Source of the DNA: an uncultured Bacillota bacterium
GTDB lineage: Bacteria; Bacillota_I; Bacilli_A; RF39; UBA660
Assembly: GCA_905200435.1 (NCBI GenBank)
Contig: CAJKKJ010000045.1
Location: 1 to 6,821, forward strand
DNA length: 6,821 bases
Reading direction: 5' to 3'
Positions 1-6,821 of the stretch are shown here, piece by piece. The notes under the pieces are model-generated. The model made no database searches and was not told the origin of the DNA. It worked only from the letters and a program-made list of their open reading frames with translations. Numbering within the stretch: position 1 is the stretch's first letter; every line of letters starts with the position of its first letter. The translations under genes and the position numbers were made by a program.

Positions 1-278
1 CTTAAATCAAGTGTTAATAGCTTTGAGCATCTAATAAACATTCCTGTCATATCTGCAACATTAGATGTATTAAAACTAGATAAATTTAATTGTGTCATTG
101 ATGAACAATTTGCAAACATACTAGACATATTAGTTACTTTTGAGGTATCAAAGTTACTTAAATCAATTGATATTAATGCCGAAGCATTAGCAAACATACT
201 TCCCATGTCAGTTGCACTCGAAGTATCAAATTTATCATTGAAATTTATTTCTACTAAGTTTTTTTGATTGCTAAACAT
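1..278 (-). repeat. BspA-type LRR repeat block inside the surface-protein gene
   Basis: Three complete repeats and the start of a fourth of a 26-27 codon unit (78-81 bases) are visible in frame. Each starts at a MF pair preceded by Ser or Gly (Met at residues 243, 270, 296, 322), continues through a hydrophobic L-x-x-L/I-D/N-L/F strand, and ends with F-D/N-T-S-x-x-T/A-D/N-M. The units are diverged at the DNA level, so this is an old protein repeat, not a recent tandem expansion. The array continues past the window edge. Confidence 0.8.
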
Positions 279-1004
279 ACTCCCACATCCTTGTGGTGCT
301 AGAATTATACCTGTACTTACTACGTGCAAATCATATAATGTTTTAGTCGTATCAGTACTATCTGTTAATCCACTATCAGTAAGATATGCATATACTTTTT
401 TATCTTGATTTGAGTCATAAGATACATCCCAACATAAATCAGAATCACCTGTACAACTTGTTGGTTTATTATCTATATTACTATCAAATTCTATTGTTCT
501 TATATAAGATTTGTATGTAGAGTTCCAAAATTCTGTACTAGCGCTAACACCATTTTTCATCATAGCAGTTTCCATTATTTTACCTTTAGTTTTAATTAAA
601 ATATCACTATCTATATTACTATTAGATTTATAGTATATCGTTATAACACCAGTTAAATTACTATTAATACTACCATTATATATATTGTTATTAATCAAAT
701 TGTTAAAATTGCTATCGGTATAAAATTTAATAGAACTATCTCCTACAAATTCTATACTATAATCAGCATTTTTAGCACTGCCTACAGTATTTATATTTAT
801 ATTAAATGAGCCGTTTGTACCACTTAAATGTATTTTGTAGCCATCATTTATTATAGAGCCATTTTCTACACCTACTTTAAAAACCCAATCTTTTGTATTC
901 ATACTTAAATTGCCTGTTATTTCGCTTTTAAAAGCAGAATAAGTATAACTCAAAACTAAAAACATTAAACAAACTATCGATAACATTAAAACATTTTTCT
1001 TCAT
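1..1004 (-). CDS. BspA-like leucine-rich-repeat surface protein, 3' end outside window
   Basis: The first 334 residues are visible and the frame is still open at base 1. The start is ATG at 1002-1004, with an AGAGG ribosome site (1014-1018) nine bases upstream. Residues 1-24 form a signal peptide: MKK, then a hydrophobic core, then SYTYSAF. Residues about 25-170 are a Gly/Asn/Ser-rich, beta-looking domain without recognised motifs. Residues about 171-240 (Cys184, Cys191, Cys240) lead into the repeats. From residue 243 there are repeats of 26-27 residues of the type MFANCSxMxxLNLSSFNTSNVxDM, with Met at 243, 270, 296 and 322. This is the BspA/DUF285 (PF03382) pattern. In that family such proteins are exported and often mediate adhesion or host contact; that role is inferred here. 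The anchor, if any, lies beyond the window. The signal peptide followed at once by a beta domain resembles SipW-processed TasA-type proteins, but only weakly. The gene has its own promoter and is separated from nrdG by a terminator. Confidence 0.85.
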   Translation of the reverse strand, partial: MKKNVLMLSIVCLMFLVLSYTYSAFKSEITGNLSMNTKDWVFKVGVENGSIINDGYKIHLSGTNGSFNININTVGSAKNADYSIEFVGDSSIKFYTDSNFNNLINNNIYNGSINSNLTGVITIYYKSNSNIDSDILIKTKGKIMETAMMKNGVSASTEFWNSTYKSYIRTIEFDSNIDNKPTSCTGDSDLCWDVSYDSNQDKKVYAYLTDSGLTDSTDTTKTLYDLHVVSTGIILAPQGCGSMFSNQKNLVEINFNDKFDTSSATDMGSMFANASALISIDLSNFDTSKVTNMSSMFANCSSMTQLNLSSFNTSNVADMTGMFIRCSKLLTLDL

Positions 1005-1027
1005 ATTAACTATCCTCTACTATCTTA

Positions 1028-1056
1028 ATTTTACTATATATGTGAATAAAAAGCAA
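1028..1056 (-). promoter_or_regulatory. Putative sigma-A-type promoter for the BspA-like gene
   Basis: Reading on the minus strand, TTGCTT (1051-1056) and TAAAAT (1028-1033) are separated by 17 bases. The -10 matches the consensus at five of six positions and the -35 at three of six. The element lies just beyond the nrdG terminator and about 24 bases upstream of the ATG, leaving a short leader that carries the ribosome site. This supports transcription independent of the nrdD operon. Confidence 0.5.
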
Positions 1057-1057
1057 T

Positions 1058-1090
1058 AAAAAAACAATCAAATATATAAATGATTGTTTT
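1058..1090 (-). terminator. Rho-independent terminator of the nrdD-nrdG operon
   Basis: On the minus strand a perfect 10-base-pair stem (AAAACAATCA / TGATTGTTTT) encloses a 10-base AT loop. The RNA ends in a run of seven U (A run at 1058-1064 on the plus strand). The nrdG stop codon TGA (1068-1070) is the first three bases of the 3' arm, so the terminator is built into the end of the gene. The stem is AT-rich but long and uninterrupted. Confidence 0.85.
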
Positions 1091-1637
1091 CTCTATAACT
1101 AACATATTTTGGTTCTCTATAAATATACTTTTCAATTAAAACCAATTTATTTTTTTTGATGCTCTCTTTTATATCAATAATTCTTTGATTTTTAGAACCT
1201 CTAAATTTAACATCAAAACTTTTTTCTTCGATTAAGAACTTACCATCTACTAAAGCATCTACATTCATCAATAGTTCCTTTAGTTTTGGACTTCTATTCA
1301 TCATTTTTTTTAATTCTTCATAAGTAAATCCTGTATATAGCCATACATTAAGTCCAATACTTTGAGCATGCTTAGCAAGTTCTAAAACAGCATCCACTTG
1401 ATATAAAGGATCCCCTCCAGAAAATGTTATTCCTTGTTGATTGACAAGTTCACTCATTTCTTTTTTTACTTCATCAATATCCACCAAATATCCACCATTA
1501 AAATCATGAGTTTCAGGATTATGGCATCCCAAACAATTATGAGAACACCCTTGAGTCCATATTACAGTTCTTATACCTTCTCCATCAACAATGCTATCAG
1601 TTTGTAAAGGTGCTGCTAGTCTAATAGTCTTTGCCAT
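1068..1637 (-). CDS. nrdG: Anaerobic ribonucleotide reductase activating protein (radical SAM)
   Basis: This 189-residue protein is the activase that uses a [4Fe-4S] cluster and S-adenosylmethionine to place the glycyl radical on class III ribonucleotide reductase in the cytoplasm. The cluster motif CSHNCLGC has Cys31, Cys35 and Cys38, spaced CxxxCxxC, followed by HNPETHDFNGG, which is typical of NrdG. The SAM-binding SGGDP motif is at residues 73-77, and VWLYTG and LVDGKF follow in the usual order. The FRGSKNQRIID segment near residue 145 is also characteristic. About 30 residues follow it, a somewhat long Lys/Tyr-rich tail. The ATG at 1635-1637 lies inside the end of the preceding 53-residue ORF (17-base overlap), with only a weak AAGAGAT upstream, so translational coupling is likely. 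Unusually, its glycyl substrate appears to be a separate small protein. Confidence 0.95.
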   Translation of the reverse strand: MAKTIRLAAPLQTDSIVDGEGIRTVIWTQGCSHNCLGCHNPETHDFNGGYLVDIDEVKKEMSELVNQQGITFSGGDPLYQVDAVLELAKHAQSIGLNVWLYTGFTYEELKKMMNRSPKLKELLMNVDALVDGKFLIEEKSFDVKFRGSKNQRIIDIKESIKKNKLVLIEKYIYREPKYVSYRENNHLYI

Positions 1638-1782
1638 GTTTTACACGATCTCTTACTTCTGCTCTTTTAGCATTGTTAAATCTATCTACAGTACCTACTA
1701 AATAACCGGTAATTCTTCTGATTCTTTCGAATCCAACTCCTTCACCAACTTTTTTTTCTTCTCTTTTTACTTCTTCTTTCAT
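1621..1782 (-). CDS. Stand-alone glycyl-radical domain of class III ribonucleotide reductase (53 aa)
   Basis: This 53-residue protein consists of a charged Lys/Glu-rich leader (1-17), then FERIRRITGYLVG with the presumed radical-bearing Gly26, then FNNAKRAEVRDRVKHG. This is the C-terminal end normally fused to NrdD. Its role, inferred, is to carry the stable glycyl radical made by NrdG and dock into the NrdD barrel so that the radical can reach the active-site cysteine. The start is well supported: ATG at 1780-1782 with a perfect AGGAGG seven bases upstream that overlaps the nrdD stop. Only 11 bases separate it from nrdD, and it overlaps nrdG by 17 bases. It is in a different frame from both neighbours, and its own frame has a stop (TAA, 1798-1800) shortly upstream. 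Simple frameshift damage to a fused gene is therefore unlikely. The leader has no counterpart I recognise and may replace the linker. Confidence 0.9.
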   Translation of the reverse strand: MKEEVKREEKKVGEGVGFERIRRITGYLVGTVDRFNNAKRAEVRDRVKHGKDY

Positions 1783-1789
1783 AAATCTT

Positions 1790-1795
1790 CCTCCT
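1790..1795 (-). promoter_or_regulatory. Perfect AGGAGG ribosome site deciding the start of the 53-aa ORF
   Basis: AGGAGG on the minus strand overlaps two bases of the nrdD stop TAG (1794-1796) and lies seven bases before ATG 1780-1782. It is a better match than the site of nrdD itself (AAGGAG). This suggests translation by terminating ribosomes at a level equal to or above that of NrdD. Confidence 0.85.
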
Positions 1796-4085
1796 ATTTA
1801 CAATTTGAGCAACTTCTTAATTTTTCAACGCTTACAGCTTCACAGTCATGTCTTCCACATCTAGGACAAACATCACCAATTACACCAACATATCCACAAA
1901 CAGGATCTCTATCTACTGGATGGTTGATTGCTCCATAACCAATACCAGCTTCTTTCATTATACGAACTACTTTTTCAAACGCTTCAACATTGCTGGCTGC
2001 ATCACCATCTAATTCGATGTATGTTATATGTCCAGCATTAGTTAAAGCATGGAAAGGTGCTTCTTTTTTAATTTTATTTGTAACAGAGATATTATAATAT
2101 ACTGGAACATGGAATGAATTTGTATAATATTCTCTATCTGTTACGCCTTTAATTTTGCCATATATAGCTTTATCTATATTTACAAATCTACCAGATAATC
2201 CTTCTGCTGGAGTTGCTAATAGTGTAAAGTTTAAATGATATTTTTCTGAATACTCATCACATTTATTTCTCATATGAGTTATAATTTCTAATCCTAGTTT
2301 ATATGCATCATCATCTTCACCATGATGTTTACCAACTAAAGCTTTTAAACATTCTGCCAAGCCAATAAATCCAATTGATAATGTACCATGTTTCAATACC
2401 CTTCTTAATCTATCAGTAGGTTTTAATCTTTCGGCATCTATCCATACACCTTGTCCTAATAAGAATGGGAAATTATATACTCTTTTATTGCATTGAATTT
2501 CAAATCTTTCAAGTAATTGATCTTTTACTAAATCCATTTTTTCATCCAACTCTTTATAGAAACCATCAAGATCTGTTTTTTCGTTCTTGATTATTCCATG
2601 TTTAATACCTAATCTTGGTAAGTTAATAGATGTAAATGATAAATTACCACGACTTGGAGTTATTTGTTTATCTGGGTCAACAACATTTCCCATAACTCTT
2701 GTTCTACATCCCATATAACATACTTCTGTATTATAGTCACCTTCTTTATAGTACTGTAAATTAAATGGTGAATCTATAAATGAAAAATTAGGGAATAATC
2801 TTTTTGCAGAAACTCTACATGCAAGTTTAAATAAATCATAGTTTGGATCTTCTGGATTATAATTAACACCTTCTTTTACTTTAAATATTGATATTGGGAA
2901 AATTGGTGTTTCTCCGTCTCCTAAACCAGCATCAGTTGCAAGTAAAAAGTTTTTGATTACCATTCTACCTTCTGGACTAATATCTGTTCCAAAGTTTACT
3001 GATGAAAATGGTACTTGCGCTCCTGCTCTTGAATGCATTGTATTTAAATTATGAATAAATGCTTCCATTGCTTGATAAGTTATTCTATTAGTTTTAGCAA
3101 TTGCTTTATCGTAAGCAAATTTAACAGCTCTTAATAATTGCTCAGAATCTTTACAAAAACTATATAAATTGTCTATTGAACCTTCTATTGATGTCATTTT
3201 TTCTATTTCTTTAGCAAATTTATCAAAATTAATTAGTTTTATAACATCGGTATAATCAAAGAAATCAACTAATTCTTGTTTAAATTGTTTTTTAAATGTT
3301 TTTATAACACCAGGTGCCATATAATAATCAAATGCTGGAATTGATTGTCCGCCATGTTGATCATTTTGGTTTGATTGAATTGCAATTGCTGCTAGAGCAC
3401 TATAAGACATAATGTCATTTGGTTCTCTTAAAAATCCATGACCTGTTGAAAATCCATTTTCAAATAATTTGTTTAAATCTATTTGGCAACATGTTGTTGT
3501 TCCCATTGGTATAAAATCCATATCATGAATATGAATATCTCCATTATCATGAGCTTCAGCATATTTTTTCTTCATTAAATATGATTTTGCAAACTCTTTG
3601 GTTACTGTACTTCCGAATTGTAACATTGTGCCCATTGCTGTATCGCCATCAACATTTGCATTTTCTCTTTTTGTATCATCTTCACTTGCTGATTTTAATC
3701 CTAATCCTTCAATAGTTTTAAAGAATTTATGAGCTCTTTTTTCATCACTGAATAACTCTCTTGATTTAGATCTTCTATCTCTATATTCAGAAAATGATTT
3801 ATATACATCTTCGTATCCTTTTTTTTGTAATTCTTCTTCAATTAAATCTTGAATTGTTTCAATTTTAATTTTTTCTTCATTTTTATATTCTTTATCTATA
3901 CGATTCATAACACCAGTAAATACTTTATTGGCATCTTTACTATCATATACTAGTTCATCATTTTCATCTGTGATACTATCAAAGCCTTTTTTTATTGCTA
4001 TAGCAATTTTTGAAGCATCAAAATCTACTTTTTTGCCATCCCTTTTTACTACTTTAATAGCTAATTTTTCTTCTACTGCTTGCAT
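1794..4085 (-). CDS. nrdD: Anaerobic ribonucleoside-triphosphate reductase catalytic subunit lacking its glycyl-radical domain
   Basis: This is class III ribonucleotide reductase (763 aa), which reduces ribonucleoside triphosphates to deoxy forms without oxygen. I place the start at ATG 4083-4085: AAGGAG lies six bases upstream, and the GTG at 4098-4100 sits immediately before that site, so it is an unlikely start. Residues about 9-103 form an ATP-cone regulatory domain (VVKRDGKKVDFD). The barrel carries NGDIHIHDMDF (182-191), the CCQIDL cysteines (199/200), and CYMGCR with the presumed thiyl-radical Cys460. SINLPR follows at 486-491. Near the end Cys730, Cys740, Cys743 and Cys748 mark the zinc-site region, and the protein closes with CSNCK (Cys759, Cys762). 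The expected RxxGYLG glycyl-radical segment is absent and is encoded by the next ORF. Met458 and Asn481 lie where, from memory, formate-using NrdD enzymes have Met and Asn; that subtype call is tentative. Confidence 0.95.
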   Translation of the reverse strand: MQAVEEKLAIKVVKRDGKKVDFDASKIAIAIKKGFDSITDENDELVYDSKDANKVFTGVMNRIDKEYKNEEKIKIETIQDLIEEELQKKGYEDVYKSFSEYRDRRSKSRELFSDEKRAHKFFKTIEGLGLKSASEDDTKRENANVDGDTAMGTMLQFGSTVTKEFAKSYLMKKKYAEAHDNGDIHIHDMDFIPMGTTTCCQIDLNKLFENGFSTGHGFLREPNDIMSYSALAAIAIQSNQNDQHGGQSIPAFDYYMAPGVIKTFKKQFKQELVDFFDYTDVIKLINFDKFAKEIEKMTSIEGSIDNLYSFCKDSEQLLRAVKFAYDKAIAKTNRITYQAMEAFIHNLNTMHSRAGAQVPFSSVNFGTDISPEGRMVIKNFLLATDAGLGDGETPIFPISIFKVKEGVNYNPEDPNYDLFKLACRVSAKRLFPNFSFIDSPFNLQYYKEGDYNTEVCYMGCRTRVMGNVVDPDKQITPSRGNLSFTSINLPRLGIKHGIIKNEKTDLDGFYKELDEKMDLVKDQLLERFEIQCNKRVYNFPFLLGQGVWIDAERLKPTDRLRRVLKHGTLSIGFIGLAECLKALVGKHHGEDDDAYKLGLEIITHMRNKCDEYSEKYHLNFTLLATPAEGLSGRFVNIDKAIYGKIKGVTDREYYTNSFHVPVYYNISVTNKIKKEAPFHALTNAGHITYIELDGDAASNVEAFEKVVRIMKEAGIGYGAINHPVDRDPVCGYVGVIGDVCPRCGRHDCEAVSVEKLRSCSNCK

Positions 4086-4091
4086 CTTTAT

Positions 4092-4097
4092 CTCCTT
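4092..4097 (-). promoter_or_regulatory. Ribosome binding site fixing the nrdD start
   Basis: AAGGAG on the minus strand lies six bases upstream of ATG 4083-4085. A longer reading from GTG 4098-4100 would place this site inside the coding sequence and leaves no comparable site upstream, so the ATG is preferred. Confidence 0.8.
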
Positions 4098-4112
4098 CAC
4101 TTTCTAAAGACA

Positions 4113-4140
4113 ATTATACTATAGTGATAGTTAAAATCAA
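4113..4140 (-). promoter_or_regulatory. Promoter of the nrdD operon
   Basis: On the minus strand TTGATT (4135-4140) and a consensus TATAAT (4113-4118) are separated by 16 bases, about 28 bases before the nrdD ATG. The spacer contains the 8-base palindrome ACTATAGT directly against the -10, where a repressor would block polymerase. The left side (tcaCTATA) resembles half of the NrdR box, but the right half does not fit, so operator identity is unproven. Confidence 0.7.
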
Positions 4141-4512
4141 GCGAACAAATGTATATTTTTTTACTTTTAATCTACAATCCCTTATATTATAAAGAGTTTA
4201 CAAAAAAATATTTTTTTTGCATTTTCAAATTATTTACATTTTTGATTTTTCGATTTTTTTACTTTTTTTATTTTAGTATTTTTTCGATTTTCCTTTATTT
4301 TTATTAGTTTTACTCATTTTTAATGTTTTCAAAAATTTATATTTTTTTCATTTCTTTGATTTTTCATTTTTTAATTTTTTTGTTTTTTTGTATTTGTTAC
4401 AAATTAATTTTTTTTGCCACAATTCATTCATTTGAATACTATTTGATCACTAATTTATACTCTACTCCATATTAGAAAAATATATATTAGTTCATTCTAT
4501 AAATTACATATT
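4141..4512. other. Gene-free, T-rich low-complexity stretch upstream of the nrdD promoter
   Basis: No supportable gene lies here on either strand. The plus strand is dominated by runs of four to eight T (T8 at 4211-4218) separated by one to four other bases. A 12-base unit, TTTTTCGATTTT, occurs twice (4246-4257 and 4280-4291). Many T runs begin about 7-9 bases apart, not a clean helical repeat, so intrinsic curvature is possible but not shown. The part nearest the hydrolase relic (about 4440-4512) is mixed AT sequence with no hairpin of note. It may act as an AT-rich upstream region for nrdD or simply be decaying DNA. Confidence 0.5.
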
Positions 4513-4830
4513 TCAATTTTTTAATTTATTATTTTTTATTCTAAATATAACACTTTCATCTCGATCTGTTCTATATATTTTTGTTTTACTTATAATATCT
4601 AAAACTTCTTTATTTGGATGACCATATCTATTATTTTGCCCTCGCTAATTACTGAATATTTAGGATTTATCTTCTGAATAAATTCCTCAAAATTACTTGT
4701 TTTAGAACCATGATGCCCTACTTATAATACATCCATATTTTATACATATTTTTTTTTTAAAAGCTATTAACTAAATTAATACTTTCGCCCATATGATCAT
4801 AATTTTCACATGATGATTTTTAAAAAAAGC
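4513..4830 (-). pseudogene. Decayed ComEC-like metallo-beta-lactamase-fold hydrolase
   Basis: This is a degenerate relative of the gene at the right end of the window. Reading on the minus strand, NYDHMGESINLV (near 4800) looks like the metal-binding HxxxDH region of the fold. It is followed almost at once by MDVL-stop-VGHHGSKTS, so most of the middle of the domain is missing. The Lys codon expected after VL is TAA, a nonsense change. A one-base deletion then breaks the frame within the ISVGKNNRYGHP equivalent (GGCAAAATAAT against GGAAAGAATAAT in the other copy). After the shift it reads HPNKEVLDIISKTKIYRTD and ends at TGA 4513-4515. At least two frame-breaking lesions plus a deletion make it non-functional. 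The 5' boundary is approximate. Confidence 0.8.
4561..4740 (-). repeat. Left copy of diverged direct repeat (hydrolase 3' part)
   Basis: This stretch aligns with 6625-6808 in the same orientation. It shares a 39-base identical block (4597-4635 with 6661-6699), an 18-base block ending TTGTTTTA (from 4571 and 6635) and a 16-base block covering the GHHG codons. The copies lie about 2.06 kb apart and bracket the peptidase and nuclease genes. Confidence 0.85.
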
Positions 4831-4854
4831 AAGTTGAATGGGAAAATTTATTTT

Positions 4855-4886
4855 AAAAAAAAAGGATTACTTGTGTGTAACCTTTT
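4855..4886 (-). terminator. Rho-independent terminator after the metallopeptidase gene
   Basis: On the minus strand AAAAGGTTAC pairs with GTAATCCTTT across a six-base ACACAA loop, with a single bulged base in the 3' arm. It runs into nine U (A run at 4855-4863 on the plus strand). The stop codon TAA (4867-4869) is part of the 3' arm. This closes the hydrolase-nuclease-peptidase unit and isolates it from the relic and the nrdD operon. Confidence 0.8.
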
Positions 4887-5643
4887 CATCTTTATCTTCA
4901 TTCAAAATACTATTAATATAATTAAATCCAGCATTTATTTTTTCTTCAATAGGTATATTTTTGCTATAAATATTTCTCAATTTATCCATAACTTTACTAG
5001 AATCATCTTCAAGTTCATAAAAGCTATCATATCCTCGCTCATTAAAATCAAACATTGTAGAAAATGGTTTATTATTCAAAATAGGATCAGTTACCATCTC
5101 ACTATATTGCCATACTAAATATGGTGAGTCATATTCACGTCTTGGCGTTTCTGGATGAATTTGTTTCCATTTTTCAAACCATAAAAAATGTAATGTTTCA
5201 TGAGTACAAACCTCTAATAATTTTGAATCATCAACACCAGTGCAAATAGAAAAAGAAAAATCATCTAAATATCTTGGAAAAACCGGAATTAATCCAACGG
5301 TTGCACTTATCTCTTTTAAATCATTTGGCCATTCTATATTCAGATATGATGATAACGTTTTAAAATAATTATCATTATATTGTTTCCATAATGTATTATA
5401 TCTTTCAGTTTCACTTTTTATTCTATCTTTATATTTATTATAATCATTAGTAACTACTTCTTCTATTACTTTATATATTTTATTTTTTGACAAGTTTAAA
5501 TCCAAATTAGCTAGTTGAGGAAAGTATTTAATTGTAAAATCACGAACACTTAAGACTCCATTATTTTCGAAATATGCCCACTTTATGACATCTATATTTT
5601 CTTGCAAAGTCATTTCTTTAAACATAATTTTTGGTAAAGCCAT
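4867..5643 (-). CDS. Putative HExxH zinc metallopeptidase, family not recognised
   Basis: This 258-residue protein has no signal peptide or membrane segment, so it is probably cytoplasmic. Residues 147-152 read THETLH, giving an HExxH zinc site (His148, Glu149, His152). Thirty residues on, SEMVTDP supplies Glu182 in an ExxxD arrangement (Asp186), the layout of gluzincin peptidases. Peptidase activity is inferred from these motifs alone, and I cannot name the family or the substrate. The N-terminal half (about 1-110) is charged and probably helical, and the C-terminal tail is acidic and Lys-rich. The frame could start as far up as 5706. I prefer ATG 5641-5643 because AGGATGTG, one base off AGGAGGTG, lies five bases upstream and the longer form would overlap the nuclease gene. 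It lies 25 bases beyond the nuclease stop and ends inside a terminator, so it could be co-expressed with the nuclease. Confidence 0.7.
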   Translation of the reverse strand: MALPKIMFKEMTLQENIDVIKWAYFENNGVLSVRDFTIKYFPQLANLDLNLSKNKIYKVIEEVVTNDYNKYKDRIKSETERYNTLWKQYNDNYFKTLSSYLNIEWPNDLKEISATVGLIPVFPRYLDDFSFSICTGVDDSKLLEVCTHETLHFLWFEKWKQIHPETPRREYDSPYLVWQYSEMVTDPILNNKPFSTMFDFNERGYDSFYELEDDSSKVMDKLRNIYSKNIPIEEKINAGFNYINSILNEDKDEKVTHK

Positions 5644-5662
5644 ATTATCACATCCTATATCT

Positions 5663-5671
5663 ATTATATCA
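5663..5671 (-). promoter_or_regulatory. Possible extended -10 promoter for the metallopeptidase gene
   Basis: TGATATAAT on the minus strand fits the TGnTATAAT extended -10 exactly, and its TGA is the nuclease stop codon. No good -35 is seen at the expected distance (TTAGAG at best). A transcript from here would have a very short leader holding little more than the ribosome site. It may allow the peptidase to be expressed apart from the nuclease. Confidence 0.35.
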
Positions 5672-6556
5672 CACAAGTTCATATTCTCTAACAGAAATTC
5701 TTTCATCTGAACAATATTCTATAACAAATTTATTTTCTCTTTTGCATATTAATATTCCCATTGTATTATTGTTACTTATTTCTTTTATATGTTTATCTAT
5801 GTAATTCATGTATTTTTGAACTTGTGATATATATTCAACTTTAAATTCTGTTACTTTTAATTCTACAACCACATAACAATTAAACTTTATATTAAATAAT
5901 AACAAATCAATACAATGATTTCTGTCTCCTATTTTAATTTTATATTCACTACCTATAAAACTAAATGAATTACCAAGTTCTTTCATAAAAGATTCAATAT
6001 CTTCCAAAATTAAATTATGTAATGCTTTTTCAGTGGCTATATCAATATTATTCTTATTTCTAATTAATATGGGATTGGGGACTAAATCTGTTGTTTCAAT
6101 TTCATCATCAAGTATTAATTTGTTTTTAGTTTCAATAGGTAATCTTTCATATTCATTAGATTTAATCTTAAATTCTAATTCTCTAACTGATAAATTTTTA
6201 TTTATTGTATCTTTAATATAATAATTCATAGAATCAGTTTCTAAACTGAATAATAATCTTAAATGACTCCATGTCAATTGTGTCCACAGTGTGGACACTT
6301 TTTCATTACTAAATATATTGTATAATTGTTTCATTCTAAATAATGTTCTTCTATTATATTTTTTACCAACTTCAACAACTAATTTTTGAGAGTATTCATC
6401 TATAACATTATCTCCATATTTTCCTCCAGCCTCAGTTAATAATCTCCCTATTTCAAAATATGTAATAACTTTATGTCTTTCTTTTGAATAATCTTTTACT
6501 TTTGAATATATTTCATTATCAATTAATTTATTTTTTATCTCATTGTAATAATTCGT
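5669..6556 (-). CDS. YhcG/DUF1016-type PDDEXK nuclease, start codon apparently lost (ACG)
   Basis: Counted from the ACG at 6554-6556 the protein has 295 residues, the usual length for the family as I recall it. The N-terminal DUF1016 part begins NYYNEIKNKLIDNE and holds an IGRLLTEAGGKYG segment and QLTWSH (near 94). The C-terminal PDDEXK part has Asp217 (CIDLLLF) and ELK (Glu232, Lys234), followed by QVQKY. These are the expected metal-dependent nuclease residues; the DNA target is unknown. AAGGAG (6562-6567) lies five bases before the ACG, as expected for a former ATG. No ATG, GTG, TTG or CTG occurs in frame between the stop TAG at 6569-6571 and ATG 6334. A start at 6334 would give 221 residues, remove about 74 conserved ones, and has no good ribosome site. 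The gene is therefore a recent start-codon mutant, uses a rare start, or contains a sequence error. It overlaps the upstream hydrolase end by 22 bases. Confidence 0.8.
   Translation of the reverse strand, partial: TNYYNEIKNKLIDNEIYSKVKDYSKERHKVITYFEIGRLLTEAGGKYGDNVIDEYSQKLVVEVGKKYNRRTLFRMKQLYNIFSNEKVSTLWTQLTWSHLRLLFSLETDSMNYYIKDTINKNLSVRELEFKIKSNEYERLPIETKNKLILDDEIETTDLVPNPILIRNKNNIDIATEKALHNLILEDIESFMKELGNSFSFIGSEYKIKIGDRNHCIDLLLFNIKFNCYVVVELKVTEFKVEYISQVQKYMNYIDKHIKEISNNNTMGILICKRENKFVIEYCSDERISVREYELV
6280..6298. repeat. 19-base perfect inverted repeat inside the nuclease gene
   Basis: Arms GTGTCCACA and TGTGGACAC flank a single central G. The element is much richer in G and C than its surroundings and encodes VSTLWT just before the conserved QLTWSH. 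The arms can be read as two opposed DnaA-box-like nonamers (seven of nine against TTATCCACA). It may be a protein-binding site or a coincidence of the coding constraint. Confidence 0.6.
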
Positions 6557-6821
6557 GTCTGCTCCTTCCTATGGACTACAAGTCTCAATTTGTAATTTAT
6601 CTTTTTTAATTTAATACTACCATTAATATCTGTCCTATATATTTTTGTTTTATTTAAACCATCTAAAACTTCTTTATTTGGATGACCATATCTATTATTC
6701 TTTCCAACACTAATTATGGAATACTTTGGTTTTATCTCATCAATAAATTTTTCACTACTACTTGTTTTACTTCCATGATGCCCTACTTTTAATACATCTA
6801 CATTTGATATATTATATTTTT
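6535..6821 (-). CDS. ComEC-like metallo-beta-lactamase-fold hydrolase, C-terminal end only
   Basis: The last 94 residues and stop (TAA 6535-6537) are visible; the start and the main metal site are outside the window. The segment reads VDVLKVGHHGSKTSSSEKF, then PKYSIISVGKNNRYGHPN, then KIYRTDINGSI. This is the signature of the C-terminal hydrolase domain of ComEC/Rec2 and of stand-alone relatives. In ComEC that domain is thought to degrade one strand of incoming DNA. Whether this gene encodes a full membrane channel or a free-standing hydrolase cannot be told here. After NGSIKLKKINYKL about 16 further residues (RLVVHR onward) run through the ribosome site of the next gene. The relic copy stops earlier, so this tail may be a read-through of a lost stop codon. 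It lies directly upstream of the nuclease, suggesting one transcript. Confidence 0.8.
   Translation of the reverse strand, partial: KYNISNVDVLKVGHHGSKTSSSEKFIDEIKPKYSIISVGKNNRYGHPNKEVLDGLNKTKIYRTDINGSIKLKKINYKLRLVVHRKEQTRIITMR
6625..6808 (-). repeat. Right copy of diverged direct repeat (hydrolase 3' part)
   Basis: This is the partner of 4561-4740, in the same orientation, with the identical 39-base block at 6661-6699. The frame is intact here and broken in the left copy, so this copy is the functional or more recent one. Confidence 0.85.

Follow-up and report, generated by a model that had tools for sequence, protein, structure and literature searches.

A 6,821-nucleotide (nt) contig from an uncultured Bacillota bacterium (CAJKKJ010000045.1, positions 1 to 6,821, assembly GCA_905200435.1; this whole stretch is hereafter the window) carries on its minus strand the gene order nrdD–grd–nrdG, a locus for a class III ribonucleotide reductase (RNR), the enzyme that provides the DNA precursor supply in anaerobes. 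Very probably, the glycyl-radical domain of this reductase is a separate 53-residue protein, the product of the small gene grd, which would accept the radical from the activase NrdG and dock in trans into a truncated catalytic subunit, NrdD.

Gene content of the window locus

The nrdD gene (1794..4085, minus strand) encodes a truncated class III RNR catalytic subunit of 763 residues, with an ATP-cone, a barrel and a zinc half-site, from which the radical-glycine segment is absent. Its likely start is the ATG at 4085, given an AAGGAG upstream and homologues of 763 residues, in a frame that stays open up to a GTG at 4100; the protein ends in ...SCSNCK and its stop codon, TAG, occupies 1796-1794. 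The small gene (1621..1782, minus strand) starts at an ATG at 1782, 11 nt past that stop, and its ribosome-binding site AGGAGG (1790..1795, minus strand), 7 nt from the ATG, overlaps the nrdD stop codon. The encoded 53-residue free glycyl-radical domain protein includes FERIRRITGYLVG, within which lies Gly26 (codon 1705..1707, minus strand), predicted to be the radical glycine of RRITGYLVG on the basis of homology and of the conservation of the TGY motif. The small gene in turn overlaps by 17 nt with nrdG (1068..1637, minus strand), which encodes a radical S-adenosylmethionine activase of 189 residues matching the NrdG model TIGR02491 with 153.1 bits (cut-off 126.1). An earlier reading of the DNA made without database searches (the sequence-only reading) had described an NrdD ending at CSNCK, a separate 53-residue open reading frame (ORF) 11 nt further on, the AGGAGG and the overlap with nrdG, all of which were confirmed in the sequence. 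The codon of the finger-loop cysteine in YMGCRT, the thiyl residue of RNRs, lies at 2706..2708 (minus strand); counted from the ATG at 4085 it is Cys460, the number that the sequence-only reading had given, and from the GTG at 4100 it is C465, in which numbering M463, G464, C465 and R466 are invariant among 51 split cores. The Met-Gly-Cys finger loop present in the window NrdD is that of formate-type enzymes (PMC9669993).

The distribution of profile matches divides the glycyl-radical domain between the two proteins. Positions 1-536 of the Pfam NRDD family (PF13597) align to NrdD with 638.7 bits and positions 533-562 to the small ORF with 32.1 bits (cut-off 26.2), and in an alignment to Prevotella copri NrdD (8p23) the core covers residues 8-708 whereas residues 18-49 of the small protein fall on 707-738. 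NrdD also matches the ATP-cone family PF03477 (61.1 bits) and PRK07111 (1046.6 bits, profile span 3-715 of 746). The sequence-only reading had placed the glycyl-radical domain on the separate protein, and this holds for the glycine half only; the zinc half-site, C735, C745 and C748 in GTG numbering (1857..1898, minus strand), is still on NrdD and invariant in the 51 split cores, its role in zinc binding being taken from the homologous glycyl-radical domains of other NrdDs (in the available text of PMC11226230). Since NrdD retains these cysteines and both the profile and the 8p23 alignment divide at the same place, the cut lies inside the glycyl-radical domain, between its zinc half and its glycine loop. 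The window thus presents an NRDD barrel with ATP-cone, the finger-loop MGCRT and nrdG in the operon, as in class III RNR, with the glycine segment found on the 53-residue ORF only and not on the barrel chain; the locus is therefore a two-chain variant and not a canonical one-chain NrdD. Models of B12-dependent RNR align to the window NrdD only at about residues 14-115, the ATP-cone, which does not place it in class II. The small ORF is read in a frame offset by 2 (= -1) relative to nrdD, so that loss of the stop codon alone would not fuse the two.

The nrdD split is native and recurrent

The separation of nrdD and the small ORF is real and native, not an error. The sequence-only reading had considered that close relatives might show one fused ORF, and this did not hold: in the 120 closest relatives of the NrdD C-terminus among the matches listed (80-99% identical in the C-terminus, last 120 residues inspected), the glycine segment is absent from the NrdD end in 120/120. 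A search with the small protein, in which only proteins of about 30-92 residues were admitted, scored 7999 candidates, of which at least 7995 pass the threshold of E≤0.01, part of them possibly contig-end fragments of fused genes; all 120 listed matches start with Met. The conserved nrdD/small ORF/nrdG arrangement, which the sequence-only reading had suggested seeking in other genomes, was found in several phyla. Among the best 80 of at least 533 confirmed stretches in GTDB, a set that favours split loci because the small protein was the query, 74 have a domain-less NrdD with the free domain downstream, one is fused and five show the domain only at the locus. The split is present in metagenome-assembled genomes (MAGs) that bear the name Fibrobacter succinogenes, and also in records whose titles do not mark them as MAGs, namely L090, L124 and Subdoligranulum variabile (L316).

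The layout was measured in 72 of the 74 split loci, the other two being left out because their core was represented by no more than a short piece. Core and domain stand in all three frame relations (25/30/17), the NrdD stop codons are TAA in 46, TAG in 19 and TGA in 7, and the gap between core and domain spans 1-304 nt with a median of 34, being shorter than 60 nt in 47. An nrdG match lies at most 700 nt downstream in 68 loci. A site resembling a Shine-Dalgarno sequence precedes the chosen start of the small ORF in 71/72 loci, as against 158/1522 internal ATGs, a count that depends on the choice of start, since the candidate with the best such site was taken. That a frameshift or stop read-through joins the parts into one fused protein is very unlikely: both parts are in frame, with at least one stop between them, in 25 of the 72 loci, but the spread in frames, stop codons and gaps, together with the putative ribosome-binding sites, cannot be explained in this manner, no slippery site was seen by eye at the window junction, and in one genome (G125, locus L187) the free domain shares a contig with nrdD but lies far away from it.

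The domain is under purifying selection, with a ratio of nonsynonymous to synonymous change (pN/pS) of 0.12 over 73 rows and of 0.11 for the window domain against the other 72. The TGY motif is present in 74/74 split, 71/72 phage-collection and 118/120 long-form domains; the 52 fused rows were chosen by this motif and hence give no count. The majority domain sequences are almost the same in the fused, split, phage-collection and long forms, FERIRRITGYLVGT(L)DRFN(N/D)AK, and because of this near identity an exchange of the domain between chains is plausible.

Fifty genomes, hand-chosen from those behind the 80 GTDB loci and counted by hand, were searched for other NrdD copies. A domain-less NrdD is present in 48 (in G093 as two pieces on two contigs) and is the sole NrdD-sized match in 41; seven have a second NrdD-sized match, one of them degenerate, while one genome has a fused NrdD only and another a fused NrdD and a lone domain. 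The possibility, raised by the sequence-only reading, of an intact nrdD elsewhere beside a decaying locus therefore did not hold in the relatives. As an account of the window, a mistake in sequencing or assembly is exceedingly improbable, and so is a degenerating nrdD with an intact copy elsewhere. Such an account would be compatible with the second full-length NrdD of some relatives (G074, G087, G089 and others) and with the window being the only source evidence for its organism, but it is contradicted by the 120 relatives lacking the segment, by the constraint on the window domain, by split loci that span several phyla and include records without MAG in the title, and by the 41 genomes in which no other NrdD-sized match occurs.

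The frequency of the split was estimated by hand in samples of whole genomes, one per class of seed locus. In the Fibrobacter-like sample, 39/51 genomes have an NrdD match, with core and free domain adjacent in 30/39 (two from the seed set), eight fused only and one with core and domain on separate contigs; a stop between core and domain was present in 16/16 pairs read at the DNA level (L245-L256, L318-L321). The Desulfovibrio-like sample has an NrdD match in 58/60 genomes and adjacent parts in 19/58 (two from the seed set), with a stop seen in the DNA of L322. Excluded before counting were G322, with two 45-residue contig-end pieces, and G372, G368, G367:C42 and G471, which have another form or in which RRITGYLVG was unconfirmed. 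One candidate from the Clostridia-like sample (G302/L323) was ruled out as a split, the DNA showing one chain with a long insert; this insert follows the zinc half-site and precedes the glycine loop, at the position at which the split falls in other genes.

Two trees of NrdD without the radical domain were inferred. A FastTree analysis of 132 out of 168 rows, near-duplicates and pieces having been removed, requires 10 changes between the split and fused states, at least 9 of them forced by supported branches, and a quick IQ-TREE analysis of 58 hand-picked rows requires 10, at least 7 of them forced; in the latter a single split clade is rejected (approximately unbiased test, p-AU 6.45e-32). 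Gains and re-fusions are indistinguishable in these trees. The fused loci L172 and L186 are placed inside the mainly split group of the window, whose nearest named neighbours are MAGs of uncultured Bacilli and Tenericutes. Intermediate configurations were found at single loci. At L239 a decayed domain is still on NrdD and a free domain lies downstream. At L187, on a 2.5-Mb contig of G125, NrdD terminates in GLERIPRINLESE and is directly followed by nrdG, with no domain remnant in the three forward frames after its end; its distant free domain protein is 99% identical to a protein named for Thomasclavelia spiroformis, and the genome has an additional full-length NrdD match of a different length, 732 residues. 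At L293 the NrdD glycine is lost and the chain terminates. A role of the CSNCK end as a redox tail was considered and dropped, the split cores having many different endings. Separately, L190 has a 798-residue NrdD ORF whose C-terminal continuation looks thioredoxin/glutaredoxin-like by eye.

Free radical domains away from the operon

A second build of the free domain is 90-97 residues long; here the same RRITGYLVG segment is preceded by an N-terminal part that is itself conserved (consensus ...NGxMxExEIxAYI...SLTLTIDGDxVDLxY...). This form of about 92 residues was found in seven genomes of two Bacillota-like samples, six with NrdD and one (G177) without an NrdD match, and its loci (L257-L261, L266, L267, L296-L310, L312-L314) accompany mostly fused NrdD. 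In the family of G125 (43 genomes), 24 genomes have an NrdD of the RRITGYLVG type, as typed from DNA and with two shortened ones included; the free protein, also read from DNA, occurs in 20/24 of these and in 0/19 others (Fisher p 1.7e-8, uncorrected for kinship and for a hypothesis formed post hoc). The 19 others comprise six typed from DNA and one without an NrdD match, the remainder having been set apart by match length. In the cases seen the gene is away from nrdD, except in G312 (L267), where it lies downstream of a fused nrdD. Constraint is weaker in the N-terminal part than in the domain (pN/pS 0.38 vs 0.18, 20 rows), and against the PDB the profile of the family matched NrdD over the radical domain only; Top7 designed proteins and SpaO, considered as relatives of the N-terminal part, are unconvincing (E 0.18-0.79). 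PF01228 had no match in ten long-form proteins, and the five compared with NCBIfam match NrdD models only. The protein appears to be a spare part dedicated to NrdD.

Free domains are also present in phage collections. Among 80 stretches kept of 101 confirmed in IMG/VR, 68 show the domain alone within the fetched flanks, eight are fused and four split. Fifty of the 72 non-fused records, many of which are fragments, were searched whole, and 47 have a domain-sized match only whereas three also have a larger NrdD match. A rough motif sort of the 72 loci gave 52 short forms, 10 long forms and 10 unsorted. The neighbours of nine lone-domain loci include named phage genes in five, that is, tape measure and major tail genes in L078, a virion structural protein in L058 (a 238-kb record), a terminase in L010, an endolysin in L015, and an endolysin and a transposase in L019; no named family was found in the other four. 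The domain is rare in the phage collection, with matches in 14/50,697 records, 11 of them faecal records without annotation. In Eggerthella phage EL753P1 (L161), a domain-less nrdD carries an intein-like insert and the small ORF is separate (6964-7175), itself being broken within RRI/TGYL. The 119-kb phage-collection record L067 contains two ORFs for free radical domains and, at another place, a match of NrdD size. The plasmid collection yielded 27 records with a match, one of which (L315, NZ_CP149735.1; 10 kb), submitted as a plasmid of Clostridioides, carries an ordinary fused nrdD-nrdG and may be a chromosome fragment.

These distributions bear on two alternatives. It is possible, if the less probable account, that the locus encodes a permanent two-chain enzyme in which the domain acts in trans, the split being a neutral fission with a single binding event and neither exchange nor repair. 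Gaps shorter than 60 nt in 47/72 split loci are consistent with the fixed stoichiometry of such an enzyme, but some genomes hold several free domain genes (five in G099, one of them below the cut-off, and three each in G100, G346 and G362), free domains lie away from nrdD in the mostly fused family, and the domain is alone in 47 of the 50 phage-collection records. Because free domains are multiple, non-adjacent and lone, supply in trans fits better than a fixed pair. It is highly improbable that the small protein acts as a decoy or regulator, or that it belongs to a glycyl-radical enzyme other than NrdD, such as pyruvate formate-lyase; the known free domains YfiD and Y06I do serve pyruvate formate-lyase (in the available text of PMC8683613), but at E≤1 all matches of the 53-residue sequence are to NrdD models, with none to PF01228 or GrcA models, its gene sits between a domain-less nrdD and nrdG, and the forms of about 92 residues track the matching NrdD type. 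We lean slightly towards the view that class III RNR in many anaerobes consists of two components and that its exchangeable domain has three roles, namely as the obligatory operon partner of about 53 residues of a domain-less NrdD, as a spare of about 92 residues, mostly encoded elsewhere in the genome, for a fused NrdD, and as a phage gene that would re-arm host dNTP synthesis. Under this three-role scheme the split would arise repeatedly because the presence of a free domain would permit decay of the in-chain one.

The remainder of the window, also on the minus strand, holds an incomplete ORF (3-1004) that has a DUF285 region and by eye resembles a surface protein, a 279-residue protein without a Pfam family above cut-off (4867-5706) and a protein of 221 residues (5669-6334) that combines a DUF1016 N-terminal domain with a YhcG PDDEXK nuclease domain and seems to lack part of its N-terminus. 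Positions 4523-4756 and 6587-6821 are two diverged copies of one stretch, 77-82% identical; by eye, the latter encodes the last part of an ORF for a ComEC-like metallo-hydrolase, and the former is a broken remnant.

Proposed mechanism and comparison with known systems

Class III reductases are destroyed by oxygen, which breaks their chain at the radical glycine. Because the bond that is cut is at this residue, a split would allow replacement of the domain. In the proposed mechanism, NrdG is predicted to install the radical on the small protein, which would dock into the truncated NrdD and complete the active site in trans, with Gly26 predicted to lie beside the finger-loop Cys460 as does the equivalent glycine in a one-chain NrdD. 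After oxygen damage the cell might then discard about 6 kDa instead of about 87 kDa, a fresh domain being inserted as YfiD/GrcA is for pyruvate formate-lyase, and phages carrying the domain alone would use the host NrdD similarly. Action of the small protein in trans is strongly implied, and replacement of the domain after oxygen damage is a plausible extension by analogy. The best reading is that of a class III reductase of two components whose radical domain can be exchanged, YfiD/GrcA-like in its mode and of another family. Of the interpretation put forward in the sequence-only reading, recurrence, frames, selection and gene order support the view that the split is native and conserved and that the radical domain is a separate protein encoded next to nrdG; that the protein is detachable and replaceable receives indirect support, in that it would fit the extra free copies, the free copies beside fused NrdD, the loss of the domain with a distant free copy, and the lone copies in phage collections.

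Several points weigh against this interpretation. Recurrent splitting alone does not show replacement, as a permanent two-chain enzyme would look alike. The majority of split loci come from MAGs, and the organism of the window, known here from the window alone, may have a second NrdD elsewhere. In the Bacilli-like sample, with an NrdD match in 86/120 genomes, the adjacent split occurs in only 4/86 (two from the seed set; G172 and G189 verified as split in DNA), and in the Clostridia-like sample, with a match in 104/118, it occurs in 1/104, the seed itself; the four class samples thus indicate that the split is the norm in some lineages but rare elsewhere. The assembly of L293 yielded no free domain. 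A joined-chain structure model, made for a pair other than that of the window by reading the stop as a residue, used an alignment that included 40 natural one-chain NrdDs; docking is favoured by this construction, since the parts are joined in one chain and one-chain NrdDs are in the alignment, and the predicted local distance difference test (pLDDT) values are 69-85 for the domain (blocks of ten) and below 50 for the linker. In a core-alone model of the window NrdD, the C-terminus from about residue 731 has block pLDDT values of 46-55, and because of these values the model is silent on what fills the empty site.

The two-component system offers a minimal arrangement for the study of radical installation, in which NrdG would act on a substrate of 53 residues. 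It also suggests that a phage might keep host dNTP synthesis running at little cost. The small proteins are named "anaerobic ribonucleoside-triphosphate reductase" or hypothetical in the sources, where named, and look like fragments because of such names. A literature search returned no description of a split or of a free NrdD radical domain, its coverage being thin for subscription journals and bioRxiv, so that earlier print is possible; within that coverage the result agrees with the sequence-only reading, which knew of no published native split.

The closest known systems are YfiD/GrcA of E. coli and Y06I of phage T4, which the available text of PMC8683613 describes as small spare parts of pyruvate formate-lyase. 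They share with the system described here a small free copy of the C-terminal radical domain, found in both cell and phage; the activase that serves the enzyme also activates this copy (PMC8683613), as is predicted here for NrdG. They back up a complete one-chain enzyme, whereas the NrdD described here is without its own domain; the window protein moreover has the NRDD-type RRITGYLVG and, by its profile matches, is not a member of GrcA. Repair by a spare part has been shown for pyruvate formate-lyase only, and Andorfer et al. speculate on other glycyl-radical enzymes (available text of PMC8683613), so that the present system makes testable a question left open there, whether spare parts exist beyond pyruvate formate-lyase. 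The split class II enzyme NrdJa/NrdJb of Pseudomonas aeruginosa is likewise a two-chain RNR with a separate C-terminal part (available text of PMC9669993), but is B12-dependent. Phage nrdD genes also occur in several ORFs, but in the available text of PMC3653736 the breaks either accompany introns, inteins or homing endonucleases or are fragmentation for which no cause is given, and a free conserved radical domain is not described. With the one-chain NrdDs of P. copri (8p23, 8p2s), Streptococcus thermophilus (9d3x) and phage T4 (1h7a), finally, the window system shares the barrel, the zinc region and the glycine loop; in those enzymes domain and barrel form one chain, whereas in the window a cut puts the zinc half-site and the glycine loop on two separate chains.

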